Shown here: one piece after another, positions 1 through 8,788 of the stretch
Numbering within the stretch: position 1 is the first letter of the stretch
Layout: every line of letters starts with the position of its first letter
Source: Streptomyces katrae
GTDB taxonomy: Bacteria; Actinomycetota; Actinomycetes; Streptomycetales; Streptomycetaceae
Length of the DNA: 9,180 nucleotides
NCBI RefSeq assembly: GCF_000966975.1
Contig: NZ_JZWV01000864.1
Span: 1 to 9,180 of the forward strand
Direction of reading: 5' to 3'
The notes under the pieces: generated by a model
What the model saw: only the letters and a program-made list of their open reading frames with translations
Told to the model about the DNA's origin: nothing
Databases searched by the model: none
Program-made: the position numbers and the translations under genes

Positions 1-1466
1 GCGCAGACCACGGCGGCGGGGCGGACGGCGCCGAAGGACTGCAGGAGCAGCCCGGTCCACATCACGGTGCCGAGGAGCAGCAGGGTGGTGACGCGGACCC
101 AGGTGAGGCCGGGGGCGTGCGGCCACAGCAGGGTTCCGGCGGTGCCCAGCAGGAGCAGCACCGCCAGGTAGGCGGCGAGGCAGCCGGCCAGGGTGGTGAG
201 CATCCGCCGCCGGAACGCCCGGGGCGAGCGGGCCGCGCGCAGCCCGGCGAGGCTGCCGCTGCGGAAGCGGTGCAGCAGCCATTCGGCGGGTCCCATGCTG
301 AGGGTGAGGGCCACCGCCGAGGGGGCCGCGACGGCTTCGGCGGGGCCGCCGGTGAGCACCTCGCCCAGGGCGGCGTACAGCACGAGCAGGCCGGTGCCCA
401 GGCCGAACACCCCGTAGGGCACGGAGTCCCCGATGCGGGGCCCACGCCGGGTGTGGTCCTCCTCGGCGCCGCGCAGCATCCGCCAGCGCACGGCGCCCCC
501 CTCGCCCGGGTGGCGCTGCGTCCGGTCCCTGATCCTGCGCACCGCGGCCCGTACCCCGTCGGCGAGCGGGAGTTCCCGCAGGGCCAGGGCGCACGCGGCC
601 GTCAGGGAGACCAGCAGCAGGGCCACCCGTACGGGCACGGGCGGGTCGGTGAACAGCGCGAGCACCGATCCGGCGGCCATCGGGGCGAGGGCGGTGAGCA
701 GCAGCTGTTCGCGCCGCAGGACGAGCAGGACGGTCGCGGCGCCCACGTACAGGGCCTGTCCGGCGGCGAAGGCGTAGGAGAAGGGCGGGCCGCCCGGTAC
801 GGCGAAGGCGGCGGCGGTGCCGAGCAGGGCGCCGACGGGGGCGCCGACGAGGAGGGTGCGTCCGGCGGCGGCCCGGTCGCCGAGGCCGAGCCAGGAGTAG
901 GCGCGGTGGGAGAGGGTCTGGTCCCAGACCCAGCCGATGAGGGCGCCGGCGAGCAGGGTGAGGGTGCCGGCGGGCAGGCCGAGCCGGTCGGGCGGTCCTT
1001 CGAGGAGTGGTTCGCCGAGGAGGTAGGCCAGGCCGGGCAGGGCGAAGATCAGCCCGCGGAGCAGGCAGGCGGTGAGGGAGACCTTCCAGGGGTCGGGGAG
1101 GGCGTCGGGCTCGGGGAAGGACCGGGGGACGCGGTGGTAGAGCTCCTCGGCGAGGGTGAAGGAGTCGGGGCGGCCGTAGGTGAGGCGGATGTACTCGTCG
1201 GTCATGCCGTCGGATTCGAGGACGGCGGCGATCTCGTCGGGGTGGACGGCGGCGGCGACGAAGGCGTCGAGGCGTCCGGCGAGTTCGTCCATGGGGTCGG
1301 CGGCGGCCGGCCCCGCCCCGGCCCGGCCGGGGCGGGGAAGGACGGGCAGGGTGTCCGTGGCCCCCGCGGCGGCGACGGGGCGGGGGCGGCAGGCGGAGGC
1401 CGCGTGGCCGACGGGTACCCAGGAGCCTTCCGGCCCGGGCGGCTTGAGCCAGAGGGATCCGCTCAC
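1..1466 (-). CDS. Polytopic membrane protein of a PelF-type exopolysaccharide locus, C-terminus outside the window
   Basis: Not recognised as a named family. The reading frame is open from a GTG at 1466 to the left edge (488 complete codons, no stop). The start is chosen because it overlaps the stop of the glycosyltransferase gene as GTGA, and GGGAG (1477-1473) sits six bases upstream; a second GTG lies one codon earlier, and Met59 is an internal alternative. Residues 1-58 are rich in Pro, Gly and Ala and look disordered. Residues 59-128 look soluble and acidic. Hydrophobic segments follow at about 129-150, 165-181, 204-223, 229-250, 255-272, 279-296, 350-368, 378-398, 425-447 and 456-475, with a basic, probably cytoplasmic loop at 297-349. 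The overlap implies translational coupling and a shared pathway. A role in polymer export or synthase assembly, like that of PelG, is inference from position; I see no clear PelG motif. Confidence 0.85.
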   Translation of the reverse strand, partial: MSGSLWLKPPGPEGSWVPVGHAASACRPRPVAAAGATDTLPVLPRPGRAGAGPAAADPMDELAGRLDAFVAAAVHPDEIAAVLESDGMTDEYIRLTYGRPDSFTLAEELYHRVPRSFPEPDALPDPWKVSLTACLLRGLIFALPGLAYLLGEPLLEGPPDRLGLPAGTLTLLAGALIGWVWDQTLSHRAYSWLGLGDRAAAGRTLLVGAPVGALLGTAAAFAVPGGPPFSYAFAAGQALYVGAATVLLVLRREQLLLTALAPMAAGSVLALFTDPPVPVRVALLLVSLTAACALALRELPLADGVRAAVRRIRDRTQRHPGEGGAVRWRMLRGAEEDHTRRGPRIGDSVPYGVFGLGTGLLVLYAALGEVLTGGPAEAVAAPSAVALTLSMGPAEWLLHRFRSGSLAGLRAARSPRAFRRRMLTTLAGCLAAYLAVLLLLGTAGTLLWPHAPGLTWVRVTTLLLLGTVMWTGLLLQSFGAVRPAAVVC

Positions 1467-3004
1467 CACAGGCTCCCGTCGGCCGCGAGTTCCTTGTACC
1501 AGGGGTCGGTGAGGCGTTGGGTCCACTGGTCGCCGGGGTGGACGGGGAGGACGGGCTGGCCGGCGAGTTCCCGGTAGATGTGGCGGAAGCCGTCCACGGA
1601 CTGGTGGAGGGTGAACTTCTCGGCGACCCGCCTGCGGGCCATGCGGCCGAGTTCGGCGCGGCGTTCGTCGTCGCGGAGCAGGGCGAGGGTGGCGCGGGCC
1701 ATGGTCTCGGGTTCCCGGGGCGGGACGACGAGGCCGGTGTCGGCGACGGCTTCGCGGACGCCGCCGACGTCGGTGGAGACGGTGGTGCGGCCGCAGGACA
1801 TGGCTTCGATGATGCTGAAGGGGAAGCCTTCGCTGATGCTGGAGAGCATGACGACGCTGCCGGCGGCGTAGGCCTTGGCCACCTCGTTGATCCGGCCCTC
1901 CCAGGTGATGCCGTCGCCGACGCCGAGTTCGGCGGCGAGCTTCTCCAGGCGGAGCTTGTACTCCTCGCAGCCGGCGGGGACGGGGCCGAAGAGGCGCAGT
2001 CGCAGGGCGGGGAGTTCCTGGCGCATGAAGGCGTAGGCGCGGATGAGGGTTTCGAGGTCCTTGATGGGGTCGACGCGGCCGCACCAGCTGAGGGTGGGGA
2101 CGTCGGGTTCGGGGCCCGCTTCAGGGAAGAGGTGCGGGTCGACGCCGTTGTAGACGGTGCGGATCCGTTCGGAGGCGGCTCCTCCGCGTTCTTCCCAGCG
2201 GCGGTTGTACTGGTTGCAGGGGGTGATCAGGTCGGCCTGCCGGTAGCCCTCGGAGTTCAGCTCCCGGTAGAAGCCGAGCATCAGGGCCTTGACGGGCCAG
2301 CGCTGGGCGGCGGTGCGGTAGCCGAGGTAGCGCTCGCGCAGGTAGATGCCGTGTTCGGTGAGGAGGAAGGGGACCCCGTCGAGGTGTTTGGCGGCGAGGG
2401 CGGGGAGGGTGGCGAGGCCGCTGCTGACGGCGTGGGCGACGCTGTCGGGCGGGATCCGCACGGCGAGCGGGCGCAGGGCGTGTTCGAGCAGGTCGGTGGC
2501 GGTGAGCGCGTCGTGGATGGTGGGGTCGGCGGCGGTGGTGGCCAGGCCTGGGCGGGTCCATACGTCCATCAGCAGGCGCAGGACGGTTTCGGAGCGCAGG
2601 GCCGGGGCGAGGCGGCCGGCGCGGGCGAGGCGGGCAAGTTCGGCCAGGGCCTCGGAGAATCCGCCGGCTGCCGCTGGGAGGGGCCCCCTGCCGTGCTCGG
2701 GGGCGATCAGGGAGAGCAGGAAGGTTTCGTAGACCTCGGTGAAGCGGCGGTGGGCCTTGCCGCGGAGGGTGGTGCGGCGGGCCTTGGGGGGCGGCGGGCC
2801 CCACAGTGGGACGGCGGTGTGCCGGTAGACGTTGCGCGGCAGTTCCCAGGTGACCGGTTCGCGTCCGGAGCCGGTCAGGGCTATGACGTTGAAGTCGACC
2901 TCCGGCATGCCGCGTACCAGTTGGTCGCACCAGGTGCTGACGCCCCCGTGGACGTGCGGGTAGGTGCCTTCGGTGAGCATGGTGACATGACGCCCATGGC
3001 TCAT
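1463..3004 (-). CDS. pelF: GT4 glycosyltransferase, PelF/DUF3492 type
   Basis: Probable cytoplasmic retaining glycosyltransferase of 513 residues that adds nucleotide-sugar-derived hexosamine to an exopolysaccharide. It has no signal peptide or membrane helix. The N-terminal DUF3492 signature is visible as EGTYPHVHGGVSTW (12-25) and TEHGIYLRER (216-225). The GT4 half follows with YNGVDP (285-290), the sugar-nucleotide loop GRVDPIKD (309-316), and SEGFPFSIIEAMSCG (391-405), which contains the EX7E pair E392/E400. PelF of the Pel system uses UDP-GlcNAc/UDP-GalNAc; the donor here is inferred. The ATG at 3004 is preceded by a G-rich Shine-Dalgarno nine bases upstream; Met9 is a weaker alternative. 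The stop overlaps the downstream membrane-protein gene by four bases. The secreted deacetylase gene lies 140 bases upstream on the same strand. Family assignment is firm; exact substrate is not. Confidence 0.92.
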   Translation of the reverse strand: MSHGRHVTMLTEGTYPHVHGGVSTWCDQLVRGMPEVDFNVIALTGSGREPVTWELPRNVYRHTAVPLWGPPPPKARRTTLRGKAHRRFTEVYETFLLSLIAPEHGRGPLPAAAGGFSEALAELARLARAGRLAPALRSETVLRLLMDVWTRPGLATTAADPTIHDALTATDLLEHALRPLAVRIPPDSVAHAVSSGLATLPALAAKHLDGVPFLLTEHGIYLRERYLGYRTAAQRWPVKALMLGFYRELNSEGYRQADLITPCNQYNRRWEERGGAASERIRTVYNGVDPHLFPEAGPEPDVPTLSWCGRVDPIKDLETLIRAYAFMRQELPALRLRLFGPVPAGCEEYKLRLEKLAAELGVGDGITWEGRINEVAKAYAAGSVVMLSSISEGFPFSIIEAMSCGRTTVSTDVGGVREAVADTGLVVPPREPETMARATLALLRDDERRAELGRMARRRVAEKFTLHQSVDGFRHIYRELAGQPVLPVHPGDQWTQRLTDPWYKELAADGSLW

Positions 3005-3026
3005 GTGCTGAGTCCCCCCAGGACTG

Positions 3027-3062
3027 AAAAGGGGCCGGCGCCCGTGGTGGGCGGACGCCGGC
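3027..3062 (-). terminator. Hairpin with short T run upstream of the PelF-like gene
   Basis: On the minus strand, 3062-3052 (GCCGGCGTCCG) pairs with 3044-3034 (CGGGCGCCGGC). This gives 11 base pairs including one G-U, closing a seven-base loop. CCCC and then TTTT (3030-3027) follow. This is the layout of an intrinsic terminator or attenuator, ending only about 22 bases before the PelF-like ATG. That leaves no room for a conventional promoter in between, so glycosyltransferase transcription would depend on read-through or on a start upstream of the hairpin. The T run is short, and activity is inferred. Confidence 0.5.
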
Positions 3063-3106
3063 GCTGGGTACTGCCGGGTGGAGCGGGTGGCCGCGGGGCT
3101 CCGGGC

Positions 3107-3131
3107 GCCCGCCCCCCGGTCGGGGGCGGGC
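3107..3131 (-). terminator. GC hairpin just after the deacetylase stop codon
   Basis: A perfect 10-bp inverted repeat (GCCCGCCCCC at 3107-3116 against 3122-3131) with a five-base loop lies 13 bases past the deacetylase stop. No T run follows on the minus strand, so it could be a U-less actinobacterial terminator, an mRNA 3'-end stabiliser, or a simple GC-rich fold. With the hairpin at 3034-3062 it makes a tandem pair in the 140-base gap. Confidence 0.4.
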
Positions 3132-3144
3132 CGGAGCGGGCGGC

Positions 3145-5172
3145 TCAGAGCAGGTGGAGGGTGACCGCCGACTGGAGCAGTTCGGGGCCCGTCCAGGTGG
3201 AGCGGGTGCCGGCGTAGGCGGTGCCGAAGTCGGCGGTGCCGAGCAGGAGCTGCTTCTTGGTGCCGTTGGGGGCGGTGACCGGGGCGAGGATGCCGGAGGG
3301 CGCCTTGATGGTGACGTCCTTGCCGATGCGGTAGGCGGTGACCTGGCCGGCGTCGACGGCCTTGTTCCAGGCGGCGCGGCGCTGGAGCTCGACGCCGGTG
3401 GCCTTCATGCTCTGGTTGACGATGGGCGCGCTGGGCGCGTAGAGGGAGCGGTAGGTGTCGAGGACCTGGTTGAGCACGGGGTAGAGGGTGCGGTCCTCGG
3501 CGAGGTTGGACTGGTGCACGTAGTGCGGCTTGGGGTCGTTGGCGAGGACGTGGCGCAGGGCGGTCTTCGCCTCGGCCGGGACGATGTAGTCCAGGTAGCC
3601 GGTGGCGGTGTCGAGGGGGGCCGGGAGGCAGGTGGAGGTCGCCGGGTTGTCCTCGCAGAGTCCGCTGCCGCCGTCGGTGCGGCTGGTGTAGATCCAGTTG
3701 TACTCGTCGGCCATCTCCGCGTTGGTGCCCGTGTTGTAGTACACGTTCATCGGGTAGCGGGGGACGGTGAGGGCGGCTCCGACGGCCCGCTGGTCGGGTT
3801 CACGGGAGTTGTCGCTGCCGGCCCACTTGACGCCGTTGTCGGCGAGGGCGCCGGCCAGGTTGGGGTTGTCCTGGGGCTGCTGCGGGAGGGTCTTGAGGCC
3901 GGAGTGCTCGCCGGTGACGAGCTCGGAGCGGTCGGTGGTGAGGCCCTTGGAGGCGGCCCAGTTGTTGTTGTCGCGGATCTGCGCCGAGATGTCGGCCCGG
4001 CTCATCCAGAGGGTCTGGCCCTGGGCGTCCTTGGTGCAGGTCCAGGGGTTGACGCTGACGTCCTGGGTGCAGCCGAGGAAGAGGTGGGTGTAGGTGTGGT
4101 TCATCCAGCGGTACTTGGCCTTGTCGGCCAGCAGCTGGGTGGTGAGGGCGTCGGTGCCGCCGTTCTCGGTCTTCCACTCCTCGCCGGCGCCCGCGTTGAA
4201 GAGCAGGTCCAGCTTGAAGTCCTTGGAGGTCTGCCACTGCGCCAGGTACTGGGCGTCGGCGGCCGTCATGCGGATCGTGGACTCCTTGCCCTCGCCTCCC
4301 GCGCAGGCGTAGTCGCCGGGGGTGCAGTTGAGGGACTTGTCCCAGCGGGCGTCGGGGGCGAAGACGTCGTCGACGTGGACGGCGAAGTAGTTGCGCTCCT
4401 GGCCGAGGTGGACGCCCTGGGTGAGCCATTCGACGATGCCGCGGGCGAGCAGCCGGAACTGCTGCTGGTACTGGTTGTAGCCGAAGGTGACGACGAGTTC
4501 GCTGCGGCCGTCGTGGGCGTACTCGCCGACGAGCGAGCCGCGTCCGGAGCCGACGGGGGCGTCGACGAGGCTGGTGTAGCCGGCCATCGGCTTGGCGATG
4601 AAGCCGTAGCTCTCCGGAATCAGGGGAGAGTTGTCCTCGAAGGTCACTTGACCGCCGAGGTAGCCGAAGGGGCCTGCCTTGCCGGCTGCGGTGACGGCGG
4701 CCTGGGTGCCGTCGAGGGTGCCGGTGTAGCCGCCGTTGTCGGTGTATTCCAGGCCAACCTCGGGGTGGGCCCAGGTGTAGGCGTCGACCTGGCGGATCCC
4801 GTACGCCGTCTCGTAGGCGGTGAGCGCGGCCATCTCGGCGGAGCCGGTGCCGAAGGGGTTCTCGTTGGGCAGGACGACGCCCTGGTACTTGGCGCGCGGC
4901 CGGCCGCTGACGGTGTCGCTGAGGAAGGCGGCGTCGATCACGGGGCGGCTCGCGCTGCCCAGGTCGATCCGCGTGAAGGGCACCCCGGTGTCGCGGAGTT
5001 CCGCGGTGATGGCCCCGACCGAGCTGCCGCCGTCGTCGACGACCAGCACCTTCAGGTCGATGCGCGGGGCCACGGTCGCCGCGTGGGCGGTCGTGGCGGG
5101 TACTGCGACCGACATCAGCGCCGCTACGCCCATGGCTGCCGCGGCCCTGTTCATCCGGTTCTTCTTGACCAT
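3145..5172 (-). CDS. Secreted polysaccharide deacetylase resembling Agd3 (CE18)
   Basis: Probable extracellular metal-dependent deacetylase of 675 residues acting on an N-acetylhexosamine polymer. A Sec signal peptide is clear: KK/R near the N-terminus, a hydrophobic stretch to about 24, and AHA at 29-31 before the predicted cleavage. Residues ~35-250 form a non-catalytic N-terminal region, plausibly the counterpart of the carbohydrate-binding/beta-sandwich part of Aspergillus Agd3. The catalytic half shows HVDDVF (266-271; Asp pair 268/269, the NodB motif-1 position) and NHTYTH (358-363; the HxxxH metal pair H359/H363). TGEHSG (420-425) and YVHQSN (551-556) are candidate later active-site motifs. 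Three close cysteine pairs (283/290, 368/379, 506/515) suit a disulfide-stabilised exoprotein. The ATG at 5172 has GGGGGGAAAGG five bases upstream; Met7 is an alternative. It is the first gene of the minus-strand cluster, upstream of the PelF-like gene. Deacetylase fold is fairly sure; CE18 membership is from memory of motif layout; the substrate is inferred. Confidence 0.85.
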   Translation of the reverse strand: MVKKNRMNRAAAAMGVAALMSVAVPATTAHAATVAPRIDLKVLVVDDGGSSVGAITAELRDTGVPFTRIDLGSASRPVIDAAFLSDTVSGRPRAKYQGVVLPNENPFGTGSAEMAALTAYETAYGIRQVDAYTWAHPEVGLEYTDNGGYTGTLDGTQAAVTAAGKAGPFGYLGGQVTFEDNSPLIPESYGFIAKPMAGYTSLVDAPVGSGRGSLVGEYAHDGRSELVVTFGYNQYQQQFRLLARGIVEWLTQGVHLGQERNYFAVHVDDVFAPDARWDKSLNCTPGDYACAGGEGKESTIRMTAADAQYLAQWQTSKDFKLDLLFNAGAGEEWKTENGGTDALTTQLLADKAKYRWMNHTYTHLFLGCTQDVSVNPWTCTKDAQGQTLWMSRADISAQIRDNNNWAASKGLTTDRSELVTGEHSGLKTLPQQPQDNPNLAGALADNGVKWAGSDNSREPDQRAVGAALTVPRYPMNVYYNTGTNAEMADEYNWIYTSRTDGGSGLCEDNPATSTCLPAPLDTATGYLDYIVPAEAKTALRHVLANDPKPHYVHQSNLAEDRTLYPVLNQVLDTYRSLYAPSAPIVNQSMKATGVELQRRAAWNKAVDAGQVTAYRIGKDVTIKAPSGILAPVTAPNGTKKQLLLGTADFGTAYAGTRSTWTGPELLQSAVTLHLL

Positions 5173-5192
5173 TTCGGCCTTTCCCCCCGCAG

Positions 5193-5237
5193 GCCTCCCC
5201 CGACCCGGCCCATGGCGGAAGGCCGGGCCGGAGAGGC
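5193..5237 (-). promoter_or_regulatory. Hairpin in the 5' leader of the deacetylase gene
   Basis: On the minus strand GCCTCTCC (5237-5230) pairs with GGGGAGGC (5200-5193). Inside a small asymmetric internal loop, CCCGGCC pairs with GGCCGGG. It ends about 20 bases before the deacetylase ATG and just before the G-rich ribosome-binding site. The fold could limit ribosome access or stabilise the mRNA. The region is GC-rich, so a chance fold is possible. Confidence 0.35.
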
Positions 5238-5320
5238 TCTGTGGAAATCATGCAAAAGGACCCCGCGTCCCCTTGCGAGAGTGGCTCGATCCTCTCGGAC
5301 CTCGTCAGGTCTAGGCGGCA

Positions 5321-5391
5321 AACCTGGAGCAGAGTCCACAGATGGGTGAACCTGGAGGCCCTCCGGTCGAACAACTTGACAAACCTTGGAG
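5321..5391. repeat. Three AACCTGGAG direct repeats with a near-palindrome, possible operator
   Basis: AACCTGGAG occurs at 5321-5329 and 5349-5357, and as AACCTTGGAG at 5382-5391; the start-to-start distances are 28 and 33 bases. The first and third share a preceding CAA context. A 15-bp near-palindrome (5352-5366, centred on 5359, one mismatched pair) overlaps the second copy. The set lies between the two divergent genes and abuts the TTGACA at 5376. Binding by a regulator is inferred; no regulator gene is present in the window. Confidence 0.35.
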
Positions 5392-5454
5392 TGACGTACG
5401 GATGACGGGCTGCGCGTAGGCTCGTTTCCGGCGGCCGTCGGGCCCGAATACGAT
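5376..5454 (+). promoter_or_regulatory. Candidate promoter region for pepA
   Basis: A perfect TTGACA lies at 5376-5381, but no good -10 is found 16-18 bases after it. Further on are TAGGCT (5417-5422) and TACGAT (5449-5454), both acceptable streptomycete -10 hexamers, with only weak -35 partners (for TACGAT, TTTCCG at 5425-5430 with an 18-base spacer). Transcription probably starts in this interval, giving a pepA leader of about 70-130 bases. Which hexamers act together cannot be decided by eye. Confidence 0.35.
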
Positions 5455-5529
5455 CGCTGCGGAGCGGCCGGCGACCCCGACGCGACAGAAGCGCCCATAT
5501 AACACAAACGGAAGCGAGACTTCACCACC

Positions 5530-7059
5530 GTGACTGCTCTGACTCTCAGCACTGCCGGCGCGGCGACGCTGCGCGCCGACGCCCTCGTGGTCGGCGTGGC
5601 GAAGGGCCCGAAGGGGCTCGTCGTGGCCGCCGGCGCGGAGGCCGTGGACACGGCGTTCGACGGAAAGCTCGCCGCCATGCTCGACGCGCTCGGCGCCTCC
5701 GGCGCCGAAGGCGAGATCACGAAGCTGCCGTCCCCGGCCGGCCTCAAGGCCCCGGTCGTGCTGGCGGTCGGCCTGGGCTCCGCGCCCGAGCTGGACGAGT
5801 CCTTCGACGAGGAGGCCCTGCGCCGCGCCGCCGGTTCCGCCGCCCGCGCCCTGCACGGTTCGAAGAAGGCGGCCTTCGCCCTCCCGCTGGAGGACGCCTC
5901 CGCCGTCACCGCCGTGGCCGAGGGCGCGCTGCTGGGCGCGTACGCCTTCACCGCCTACCAGGGCGGCGACAAGAAGGCCGCCAAGAACGGTGGCCCCAAG
6001 CAGCCGCTGGCCGAGGTGGCCCTGCTCGGCGCCAAGCCGCGTGACAAGGAGCACAAGGCGGCCGCCGAGCGCGCGACCGTCGTCGCCACCGAGGTCAACG
6101 TCGCCCGCGACCTGATCAACACCCCGCCGAACGACCTCACGCCGGCCGCCTTCGCCGCCATCGCCGCGGCGACCGCCAAGGAGCTCGGTCTCAAGGCGCA
6201 GGTCCTGGACGAGAAGGCGCTGATCAAGGGCGGCTACGGCGGCATCATGGGCGTCGGCAAGGGCTCCGAGAACCCGCCGCGCCTGGTGAAGATCGCCTAC
6301 ACCCACCCGGAGGCGGAGAAGCACCTCGCCTTCGTCGGCAAGGGCATCACGTACGACTCGGGCGGCATCTCCCTGAAGCCGGCCGGTCACAACGAGACGA
6401 TGAAGTGCGACATGTCCGGCGCCGCCGCCGTGTTCTCGTCGGTCGTCGCCGCCGCCAAGCTGGGCCTGAAGGTCAACGTCACCGGCTGGCTCGCCCTGGC
6501 CGAGAACATGCCGTCCGGCTCCGCCACCAAGCCCGGTGACGTGCTGCGCATGTACAGCGGCAAGACCGTCGAGGTCCTGAACACGGACGCCGAGGGCCGC
6601 CTGGTCCTGGGCGACGCCCTCACGAAGGCCTCCGAGGAGAACCCGGACGCGATCGTCGACGTGGCCACCCTGACCGGCGCCATGGTGCTGGCCCTGGGCG
6701 ACCGCACCTTCGGCATCATGGCCAACGACGACGCCTTCCGCACCTCGATCCACGAGATCGCCGAGGAGGTCGGCGAGGCCTCCTGGCCGATGCCGCTCCC
6801 CGAGGACCTGCGCAAGACGATGGACTCCCCGACCGCCGACATGGCGAACATGGGCGTCCGGATGGGCGGCGGCCTGGTGGCCGGCCTCTTCCTCCGGGAG
6901 TTCGTCGGCGAGGGCATCACCTGGGCCCACCTCGACATCGCGGGCCCCGCCTTCCACGAGGGCGCCCCGTACGGCTACACCCCGAAGGGCGGCACCGGCT
7001 CCGCCGTCCGCACCCTGGTGCGCCTCGCCGAGCGCACCGCCACCGGCGACCTGGGCTGA
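5530..7059 (+). CDS. pepA: Leucyl aminopeptidase, peptidase family M17
   Basis: Cytosolic zinc/manganese aminopeptidase of 509 residues that removes N-terminal residues such as leucine from peptides, normally as a hexamer. The N-terminal domain (about 1-170) is variable; the C-terminal catalytic domain (about 185-505) holds every expected residue. Metal ligands are K271 and D276 (GKGITYDSGG), D294 (CDMSG), and D353 and E355 (NTDAEGRL). The catalytic pair is K283 (SLKP) and R357. These fall one residue after the E. coli PepA positions. An in-frame TAA at 5500-5502 leaves the GTG at 5530 as the only common start; its Shine-Dalgarno is poor (GCGAG, 11 bases away). The gene is divergent from the deacetylase and followed by a strong hairpin, so it is probably monocistronic. 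E. coli PepA also binds DNA; nothing here tests that. Confidence 0.97.
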   Translation: MTALTLSTAGAATLRADALVVGVAKGPKGLVVAAGAEAVDTAFDGKLAAMLDALGASGAEGEITKLPSPAGLKAPVVLAVGLGSAPELDESFDEEALRRAAGSAARALHGSKKAAFALPLEDASAVTAVAEGALLGAYAFTAYQGGDKKAAKNGGPKQPLAEVALLGAKPRDKEHKAAAERATVVATEVNVARDLINTPPNDLTPAAFAAIAAATAKELGLKAQVLDEKALIKGGYGGIMGVGKGSENPPRLVKIAYTHPEAEKHLAFVGKGITYDSGGISLKPAGHNETMKCDMSGAAAVFSSVVAAAKLGLKVNVTGWLALAENMPSGSATKPGDVLRMYSGKTVEVLNTDAEGRLVLGDALTKASEENPDAIVDVATLTGAMVLALGDRTFGIMANDDAFRTSIHEIAEEVGEASWPMPLPEDLRKTMDSPTADMANMGVRMGGGLVAGLFLREFVGEGITWAHLDIAGPAFHEGAPYGYTPKGGTGSAVRTLVRLAERTATGDLG

Positions 7060-7195: not shown

Positions 7196-7351
7196 TCTAC
7201 GCCCGGGTAACCCGGACTTCGGGCAGAACGACGGTCCACACCCGGGGCCCGGCGTCCCGCGTTCCCCCGACAAATGCGAAGATGGGTTCTCGGCAGGACA
7301 GGGCCCCCACCACAGGGCCGAAGAAACAAGCGGCCGATTACCAGCCGCCGC

Positions 7352-7369
7352 CCGGTCACAGAGGACCGG
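7352..7369 (+). promoter_or_regulatory. Leader hairpin before the lpdA ribosome-binding site
   Basis: CCGGTC (7352-7357) and GACCGG (7364-7369) form a six-base-pair stem with the loop ACAGAG. It ends 18 bases before GGAGG. It could stabilise the mRNA end or tune initiation. It is short and may have no function. Confidence 0.25.
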
Positions 7370-7387
7370 TGCCCGGCGCACATGCAT

Positions 7388-7392
7388 GGAGG
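7388..7392 (+). promoter_or_regulatory. lpdA ribosome-binding site (decides start)
   Basis: GGAGG is a perfect Shine-Dalgarno core, seven bases before the GTG at 7400. It fixes that GTG as the start, in preference to the in-frame ATG at 7274, which would add 42 unrelated Arg/Pro-rich residues. Confidence 0.85.
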
Positions 7393-7399
7393 ACGTGAC

Positions 7400-8788
7400 G
7401 TGGCGAACGACGCCAGCACCGTTTTCGACCTAGTGATCCTCGGCGGTGGCAGTGGCGGCTACGCCGCGGCGCTCCGCGCATCCCAGCTGGGTCTCGACGT
7501 TGCGCTGATCGAGAAGAACAAGCTCGGCGGCACCTGCCTGCACAACGGCTGCATCCCCACGAAGGCTCTGCTGCACGCCGGTGAGGTCGCCGACCAGGCG
7601 CGCGAAGCCGGACAGTTCGGTGTCAAGGCCTCTTTCGAGGGCATCGACATCGCCGGTGTGCACAAGTACAAGGACGAGGTCATCGCCGGCCTCTACAAGG
7701 GTCTGCAGGGCCTGGTCGCCTCCCGCAAGGTGACCTACATCGAGGGTGAGGGCCGCCTCTCCTCCCCGACTTCCGTCGACGTCAACGGCCAGCGCATCCA
7801 GGGCCGCCACGTCCTGCTGGCGACCGGCTCCGTGCCGAAGTCCCTGCCCGGCCTGGACATCGACGGCAACCGCATCATCTCCTCGGACCACGCGCTGGTC
7901 CTGGACCGCGTGCCCCAGTCCGCGATCATCCTGGGCGGCGGCGTCATCGGCGTCGAGTTCGCCTCGGCGTGGAAGTCCTTCGGCACCGACGTCACCGTCA
8001 TCGAGGGCCTCAAGCACCTCGTCCCGGTCGAGGACGAGAACAGCTCCAAGATCCTGGAGCGCGCCTTCCGCAAGCGCGGCATCAAGTTCAACCTCGGCAC
8101 CTTCTTCCAGAAGGCCGAGTACACCGAGTCCGGCGTCCGCGTGACCCTCGCCGACGGCAAGACCTTCGAGGCCGAGGTGCTGCTGGTCGCCATCGGCCGC
8201 GGCCCGGTCTCGCAGGGCCTGGGCTACGAGGAGCAGGGCGTCGCGATGGACCGCGGCTACGTCCTGGTCGACGAGTACATGCGCACCAACGTGCCGACCA
8301 TCTCCGCCGTCGGTGACCTGGTCCCGACCCTCCAGCTCGCGCACGTCGGCTTCGCCGAGGGCATCCTGGTCGCGGAGCGCCTGGCCGGTCTGAAGACCGT
8401 CCCGATCGACTACGACGGCGTCCCGCGCGTCACGTACTGCCACCCCGAGGTCGCCTCCGTCGGCATCACCGAGGCCAAGGCCAAGGAGATCTACGGTGCG
8501 GACAAGGTCGTCGCCCTGAAGTACAACCTGGCGGGCAACGGCAAGAGCAAGATCCTGAAGACCGCGGGCGAGATCAAGCTCGTCCAGGTCAAGGACGGTG
8601 CCGTGGTCGGCGTCCACATGGTCGGTGACCGGATGGGCGAGCAGGTCGGCGAAGCCCAGCTGATCTACAACTGGGAGGCCCTGCCGGCCGAGGTCGCGCA
8701 GCTCATCCACGCGCACCCGACCCAGAACGAGGCCCTCGGCGAGGCCCACCTGGCCCTGGCCGGCAAGCCGCTTCACGCACACGACTAA
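7400..8788 (+). CDS. lpdA: Dihydrolipoamide dehydrogenase (E3)
   Basis: Cytosolic FAD-dependent E3 subunit of 462 residues. It reoxidises dihydrolipoyl groups of 2-oxoacid dehydrogenase complexes and passes electrons to NAD+. In order it shows the FAD dinucleotide motif GGGSGG (15-20), the redox-active disulfide C46/C51 in GGTCLHNGC, the NAD motif GGGVIG (179-184), the second FAD contact SAVGDL (302-307, D306), and the dimer-interface catalytic pair H439/E444 in HAHPTQNE. Length is normal for the family and no key residue is missing. The GTG at 7400 is supported by GGAGG at 7388-7392. sucB begins 57 bases after the TAA stop in the same direction, so the two are probably co-transcribed, supplying E3 and E2. 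As in most actinomycetes, this E3 could also serve pyruvate or branched-chain complexes; the sequence does not say which. Confidence 0.97.
   Translation: MANDASTVFDLVILGGGSGGYAAALRASQLGLDVALIEKNKLGGTCLHNGCIPTKALLHAGEVADQAREAGQFGVKASFEGIDIAGVHKYKDEVIAGLYKGLQGLVASRKVTYIEGEGRLSSPTSVDVNGQRIQGRHVLLATGSVPKSLPGLDIDGNRIISSDHALVLDRVPQSAIILGGGVIGVEFASAWKSFGTDVTVIEGLKHLVPVEDENSSKILERAFRKRGIKFNLGTFFQKAEYTESGVRVTLADGKTFEAEVLLVAIGRGPVSQGLGYEEQGVAMDRGYVLVDEYMRTNVPTISAVGDLVPTLQLAHVGFAEGILVAERLAGLKTVPIDYDGVPRVTYCHPEVASVGITEAKAKEIYGADKVVALKYNLAGNGKSKILKTAGEIKLVQVKDGAVVGVHMVGDRMGEQVGEAQLIYNWEALPAEVAQLIHAHPTQNEALGEAHLALAGKPLHAHD

Follow-up and report, generated by a model that had tools for sequence, protein, structure and literature searches.

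Cationic galactosamine polymers are known as matrix glues of Pseudomonas, bacilli and moulds. In this study, we analysed a stretch of 9,180 bases from Streptomyces katrae (hereafter the window), a complete contig from an assembly that totals 8.05 Mb over 1,873 contigs. The window encodes an Agd3-like deacetylase, a PelF-family glycosyltransferase and a large membrane protein. As the earlier note on this DNA stated, the open reading frame listing places all three genes on one strand, the minus strand. They open a set of five genes that is conserved across many Streptomyces, and because the contig ends inside the third gene, the set is longer than the window shows. We consider it likely from the sequences that this set makes, exports and partly deacetylates a cationic galactosamine polymer of the Pel or galactosaminogalactan (GAG) type.

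The closest described systems are the bacterial agd3 operons. Bamford et al. 2020 (PMC7229062) found Agd3 homologues in 45 bacterial species, and 30 of the 35 homologues in their tree were located within or close to operons encoding carbohydrate-active enzymes. All the agd3 operons they identified encode a cytoplasmic glycosyltransferase and a multi-spanning membrane protein, a GH114 gene is highly consistent, and a spherulin-4 gene occurs in those of some Actinobacteria, so that the members are the same as in the Streptomyces locus. Their discussion mentions operons with most or all genes of the GAG cluster and a bacterial origin of the fungal cluster, and the paper also cites a polysaccharide of galactosamine in the walls of Streptomyces and an endo-galactosaminidase that S. 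griseus secretes. The set that the earlier note had proposed is therefore already in print in outline. However, the main text of PMC7229062 makes no mention of PelF, PelG, a flippase or a disulfide, and the N-terminal domain of the exporter, the signal-less spherulin-4 protein and the three Streptomyces locus types described below were not met there. Among the matches listed from titles and abstract openings of the open-licence literature, none tied an Agd3-type set to PelF, a PelG-like exporter or a Streptomyces phenotype. The new parts are the exporter and the signal-less hydrolase.

Two other systems invite comparison. In the Aspergillus fumigatus GAG cluster (uge3, agd3, ega3, sph3 and gtb3; PMC4817252, PMC8647848), agd3, ega3 and sph3 have counterparts in the Streptomyces set. 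Both share a synthase-exporter function (predicted in Streptomyces), which in the fungus is assigned to the single putative transmembrane protein Gtb3 and in Streptomyces is divided between two genes. No counterpart of uge3 was found in the Streptomyces locus type represented by the window (type A), and Sph3 is predicted to be membrane-anchored, whereas its Streptomyces counterpart shows no signal. With the Gram-positive pelDEADAFG operon (PMC7112168, PMC13254593), the locus has in common PelF, a MOP-fold exporter and an extracellular three-domain deacetylase, the latter two being predicted here. In contrast to that operon, no PelD-like gene was found (PelE was not searched for), the deacetylase is of the Agd3 rather than the PelADA type, and the exporter falls outside the PelG model and carries an added N-terminal domain. 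A further comparison is with two Rubrobacter-type loci (L110 and L111); PMC7112194 mentions that pel operons occur in Rubrobacteria. As in Streptomyces, PelF there lies beside an Agd3-type deacetylase in an actinomycetotal genome. Unlike the Streptomyces exporter, which fails the PelG model, their exporter is a true PelG (470.6 and 459 bits) of 457 aa in which no N-terminal motif domain was seen, and a GAF-GGDEF gene, which we labelled PelD-like, lies upstream.

Conservation and types of the gene set

The relatives compared were the best 80 of 246 confirmed loci, and are thus close relatives by design; gene content was scored in the 72 with 5.5 kb or more of downstream sequence, the remaining 8 being set aside. 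The deacetylase gene is divergent from pepA in all 80. The earlier note had made its operon depend on the co-occurrence of the three genes in relatives, and in every one of the 72 loci pelF and the membrane-protein gene do lie downstream in the same orientation as the deacetylase gene, a co-occurrence beyond chance. A Spherulin-4 gene is present in 68 of these loci, a GH114 gene in 64, and pelF, the membrane-protein gene and both hydrolase genes in 61, so that counterparts of Agd3, the glycosyltransferase, Ega3/GH114 and Sph3/spherulin-4 occur together in 61 of the 72 relatives, the window showing the first part only. The same note had pointed to the neighbourhood for a GH114 hydrolase and an epimerase; in these relatives the former was found, and no epimerase was matched.

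The S. katrae genome holds two further PelF loci. The first (type B) lies on contigs C17, with a deacetylase 63% identical to that of the window, PelF and the motif domain discussed below, and C16, which carries genes for an epimerase-family protein, a nucleotidyltransferase and a second SDR protein as well as a Spherulin-4 gene that the contig end truncates. A copy in another genome (G352, locus L120) gives the order deacetylase, PelF, motif domain, epimerase, nucleotidyltransferase, SDR and Spherulin-4, and another copy (L118) has a GH114 match. The epimerase-family gene scores 234 bits against PF16363 and 201.6 bits against PF01370. The second locus (type C) has on contig C431 a PelF 41% identical, a membrane protein and an SDR gene (L127, 5500-6516), while contig C432 opens with a Spherulin-4 gene (L128, 2-718); contig C431 has no deacetylase beside the PelF and membrane-protein pair. 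In genome G294, a relative of the deacetylase gene (L116, 7708-8618) is interrupted by stops and spread over several frames, and so may be a decayed or mis-sequenced copy; two PelF-like genes and a GH114 gene lie nearby.

The Agd3-like deacetylase

Three observations place the first gene product with Agd3. First, the AlphaFold 2 model of the protein (pLDDT 78.7) has Agd3 (6nwz) as its best Foldseek/VIA match, and the predicted structure shows both the fold and the three-domain architecture of Agd3 (CBM87, carbohydrate esterase (CE) and beta-rich C-terminal domains). GMP synthases and other glutamine-amidotransferase folds in the same list were set aside, as they cover mainly the N-terminal domain. 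Second, the Agd3 catalytic set D377, D378, H510, H514, R613 and H668 (numbering of PMC7229062) is matched in full by D268, D269, H359, H363, R472 and H553, a mapping that we made from a 22-row alignment (A3). In this alignment D268, D269, N358, H359, T360, H363 and H553 are invariant, and R472 is almost so, the exception being locus L112. Third, the protein aligns over its full length with its relatives. Its best homologues in the protein database are from Streptomyces, with identities up to 97%, and several at 85-88% identity are annotated with PF25115.2; three of four scanned relatives pass both PF25115 and PF25116, and the Agd3_CE cut-off is passed by those of L110, L112 and L115. The residue-level claims of the earlier note, namely the HVDDVF and HxxxH (H359/H363) motifs and six paired cysteines, were also correct, the only cysteines being three close pairs (283/290, 368/379 and 506/515).

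Predicted synthase, exporter and hydrolases

The identity of the second gene is clear. Its product scores 169.6 bits against the NCBIfam PelF equivalog NF038011 (cut-off 100) and 195.8 bits against Pfam DUF3492 (cut-off 23.3), which bears out the earlier assignment to a DUF3492/PelF glycosyltransferase.

The third gene encodes the membrane protein. Its full-length, near-identical copy P0121 has 536 aa; the roughly ten helices of the earlier note agree with the 10-11 in the window, although the complete protein has about 12 predicted transmembrane helices, and the P0121 model shows the 12-helix fold of the MOP superfamily. Neither the window protein nor five homologues reached the cut-off of the Pfam PelG model (PF16933), which found no match in the S. 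katrae genome and was passed in 2 of 149 genomes (G011 and G041); in the genome samples, the best few candidates per genome were scored. As profile comparisons with PelG failed, we did not file the Streptomyces exporter as PelG.

A motif in its N-terminal part is common to membrane proteins of distant loci (six-row alignment A8). Genome searches with A8 recovered this motif domain from 14 of 148 genomes at class level and from 21 of 392 across the Actinomycetota; every one of the Streptomyces listed (11 and 12, respectively) has it. A PelF-family gene adjoins the domain in 26 of the 28 loci that were read, some of the listed matches having yielded no locus. Six of these (L133, L134, L142, L147, L153 and L154) are seed loci of the motif model, chosen beside PelF, and the independent count is therefore 20 of 22. 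The exceptions are L156, which lacks a PelF gene within 3.1 kb, and L160 (E 5e-4, a 41-aa frame), which is probably a chance match. Five phylum-level proteins with the domain (L156, L157, L158, L159 and L115) aligned with PelG over 405 columns (hhalign 93.2%, E 3e-7); of four that were scanned, one gave a sub-threshold PelG score (20.8 bits against 29) and three gave none. The true-PelG genomes G011 and G041 are not among these 21 genomes, although the draw of 392 may not have included both. From these comparisons we infer that the motif-domain family is a diverged branch of PelG with an added cytosolic domain, and that the Streptomyces exporters join this branch through the phylum-level intermediates only, by a distant and indirect link. 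The 12 Streptomyces among the matches listed in the phylum samples all have the motif domain and 6 of them have the deacetylase, which was matched in 144 of 295 genomes in the genus sample. The PelF-exporter pair thus seems general in Streptomyces, and the Agd3-type sets seem accessory.

The two hydrolases were read in a S. lavendulae locus (L009), where the Spherulin-4 protein scores 105 Pfam bits and matches Sph3 (5c5g, E 1.7e-10), and the GH114 protein scores 279 bits and matches Ega3 (6oj1, E 4e-59). The residues D95 and E145 of the former, taken as the catalytic Asp and Glu, are invariant in 11 rows. In 69 of 69 loci, the starts available to the Spherulin-4 gene from the end of the membrane gene onwards, with up to 30 bases before its stop also permitted, gave no signal-like extension. 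The distance from start to first strand is short (6 or fewer extra residues in 37 loci, 7-26 in 28 and more than 26 in 4), and no hydrophobic 10-mer occurs in the N-terminal extensions of the 69 loci. The same measure flagged both controls, the window deacetylase and the L009 GH114 protein. A predicted lipobox was found in the GH114 proteins in 60 of 64 cases by regular expression and in the other 4 by eye, and the predicted layout is thus one hydrolase inside the cell and one outside. Two side observations concern these families. In nine Streptomyces Spherulin-4 rows, Gln replaces the Glu beside the catalytic Asp (FLDQ against FFDE of Sph3; L009 gene, 15309-15962), which the Rubrobacter-type protein keeps. 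A metagenomic protein of 739 aa (P0333) carries PelG and GH114 Pfam domains, an exporter-hydrolase fusion.

Proposed function and flanking features

How might these proteins act together? The following steps are drawn from the protein families and their anatomy. In the cytosol, PelF would build alpha-1,4-GalNAc chains from UDP-N-acetylgalactosamine (UDP-GalNAc), and the membrane protein, with its predicted MOP fold, would carry the chain out of the cell as it grows, with its N-terminal motif domain holding PelF at the membrane in place of PelD and PelE. Outside the cell, the deacetylase, with its CBM87-like domain and putative metal site (D269/H359/H363), would remove acetyl groups, and the product would be a polycation that sticks to hyphae and surfaces. 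The GH114 lipoprotein may trim or release the polymer outside, and the signal-less Spherulin-4/GH135-like protein may act on chains in the cytosol. We offer only tentatively, as the less probable part of this scheme, the proposal that Actinomycetota possess a Pel/GAG-type synthase without PelD and PelE, in which the N-terminal module of a diverged-PelG exporter docks PelF and the Spherulin-4/GH135-like enzyme acts intracellularly on the chain being made. If it were true, synthesis would escape the direct switch by cyclic di-GMP (c-di-GMP) that pel systems have, and the intracellular action would explain the need for a hydrolase in polymer synthesis.

The case for the galactosamine polymer is one of best explanation, based on gene order, conservation, family matches and residue conservation, with signal, lipobox and fold as predictions, and several results weigh against it. 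The window deacetylase scores 21.4 bits against Pfam Agd3_CE, below the cut-off of 27.6; its designation as Agd3-like therefore rests on fold, residues and relatives, and the earlier note's interpretation, a PelF-type synthase paired with a fungal-type deacetylase in Streptomyces, is supported in part. A nearer relative, that of L113, is also below the cut-offs (Agd3_CE 18.4 bits, CBM87 16.2 bits), and sequence searches of the PDB with the deacetylase alone and with a nine-row profile did not return Agd3, which only the fold search found. Y551 occupies the position of M666, which Agd3 needs. As scored, 11 of the 72 loci lack gene 4, gene 5 or both, and no GH114 gene was found in the S. katrae genome, where the contig ends just before its expected place. 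When the type B epimerase, SDR and nucleotidyltransferase proteins served as tblastn queries (1e-5), none was matched in any of the 80 type A loci. Profiles of the Streptomyces exporter reached only 0.5% and 0.1% against PelG in hhalign, and a profile mixing it with phylum-level relatives only 2.1%.

An unlikely but not negligible alternative is that the locus makes another hexosamine polymer or glycan, containing for example N-acetylglucosamine (GlcNAc), galactose or uronic acid, which the Agd3-like enzyme deacetylates. Most loci, however, have both of the hydrolase families that cut GAG (GH114/Ega3-like and Spherulin-4/Sph3-like), and the paralogous type B locus has an epimerase-family gene. 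There is quite a low probability that the locus is an ordinary Gram-positive pelDEADAFG operon with diverged members. That PelF passes its equivalog and that relatives of the exporter align with PelG would suit such an operon, and a PelD could have been missed, because Gram-positive PelD is hard to recognise by BLAST or HMMER (PMC7112168). Nevertheless, tblastn with one Rubrobacter query, which a diverged PelD may escape, gave PelD-like matches in only two of the 93 loci, namely the Rubrobacter-type ones with a true PelG. Locus L009, read gene by gene, has no additional gene between the deacetylase and GH114, and PelADA belongs to no existing CE family as published (PMC13254593), whereas the Streptomyces enzyme is nearest to Agd3. 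As that one query gave no PelD-like match in the Streptomyces loci and the exporter does not pass the PelG model, we rejected this reading. A GGDEF regular expression matched 5 of the 93 loci in frames that, judged by eye, are not GGDEF proteins, and a PF16963 search of the S. katrae genome was not counted as evidence, the search having no match in any control genome. Finally, although GH114 and Agd3-type enzymes act on a fungal polymer and the lack of a deacetylase match in about half of the Streptomyces genomes suits an accessory function, it is very improbable that the set serves the breakdown or remodelling of polymers from fungi or other bacteria rather than synthesis, as the PelF and MOP-fold genes found in all 72 loci are unneeded for pure degradation.

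If the synthesis of a cationic galactosamine polymer is the correct reading, a set with counterparts of most fungal-cluster genes offers a filamentous bacterium, non-pathogenic and genetically tractable, in which to study polymer synthesis, and its conservation in Streptomyces makes more precise the published proposal of a bacterial origin for the fungal cluster. The PelF-linked domain of the exporter provides a concrete test of how PelF could be retained at the membrane in a system lacking PelD and PelE. With a signal-less Spherulin-4 protein, why Sph3 is needed for synthesis (PMC8647848) becomes a question of the side of the membrane on which the hydrolase works.

Table 1. Features of the window (positions in the 9,180-base stretch; residue numbers are those of the encoded protein)
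Feature	Position	Strand or orientation	Description
Deacetylase gene	3145-5172	-	Open reading frame, 675 aa; Agd3/CE18-type de-N-acetylase; predicted Sec signal (1 to ~31), CBM87-like domain, NodB-like catalytic domain, beta-rich C-terminus
HVDDVF, residues 266-271	4360-4377	-	D268 predicted catalytic base, D269 predicted metal ligand (Agd3 D377/D378)
NHTYTH, residues 358-363	4084-4101	-	H359 and H363 predicted metal ligands (Agd3 H510/H514)
R472	3757-3759	-	Predicted base-coordinating arginine (Agd3 R613, motif CM3)
YVH, residues 551-553	3514-3522	-	H553 predicted catalytic acid (Agd3 H668)
pelF	1463-3004	-	Open reading frame, 513 aa; PelF-family GT4 glycosyltransferase, predicted cytosolic polymer synthase
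Membrane-protein gene	1-1466	-	GTG start at 1466; 488 of ~536 codons before contig end
N-terminal motif domain of predicted exporter, residues 70-116	1119-1259	-	Alignment A8
Deacetylase-pepA intergenic region	5173-5529		MAFFT alignment of 23 intergenic regions
pepA	5530-7059	Divergent from deacetylase gene	Pfam and NCBIfam models passed
lpd	7274-8788	Right of pepA, divergent from deacetylase gene	Open reading frame; name read from translation
sucB-like gene, start only	8846 on	Right of lpd, divergent from deacetylase gene	Name read from translation

The pelF stop and the GTG start of the membrane-protein gene share a 4-base overlap, GTGA (1466-1463). The three genes contain no TTA codon, and therefore give no hint of bldA control, and an Rfam scan of the window for a c-di-GMP or other RNA element gave no match at gathering scores. 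In the intergenic region, a block GCATGATTTCCACAG (5239-5253, minus strand), about 70 bases upstream of the deacetylase start, matched no known operator; it is kept in most of the 23 aligned regions, and its conservation extends to distant ones. A second block, GAGCCTACGC (5413-5423, minus strand), is identical in all 23, and its plus-strand reading contains TAGGCT, which is perhaps the -10 element of the pepA promoter.

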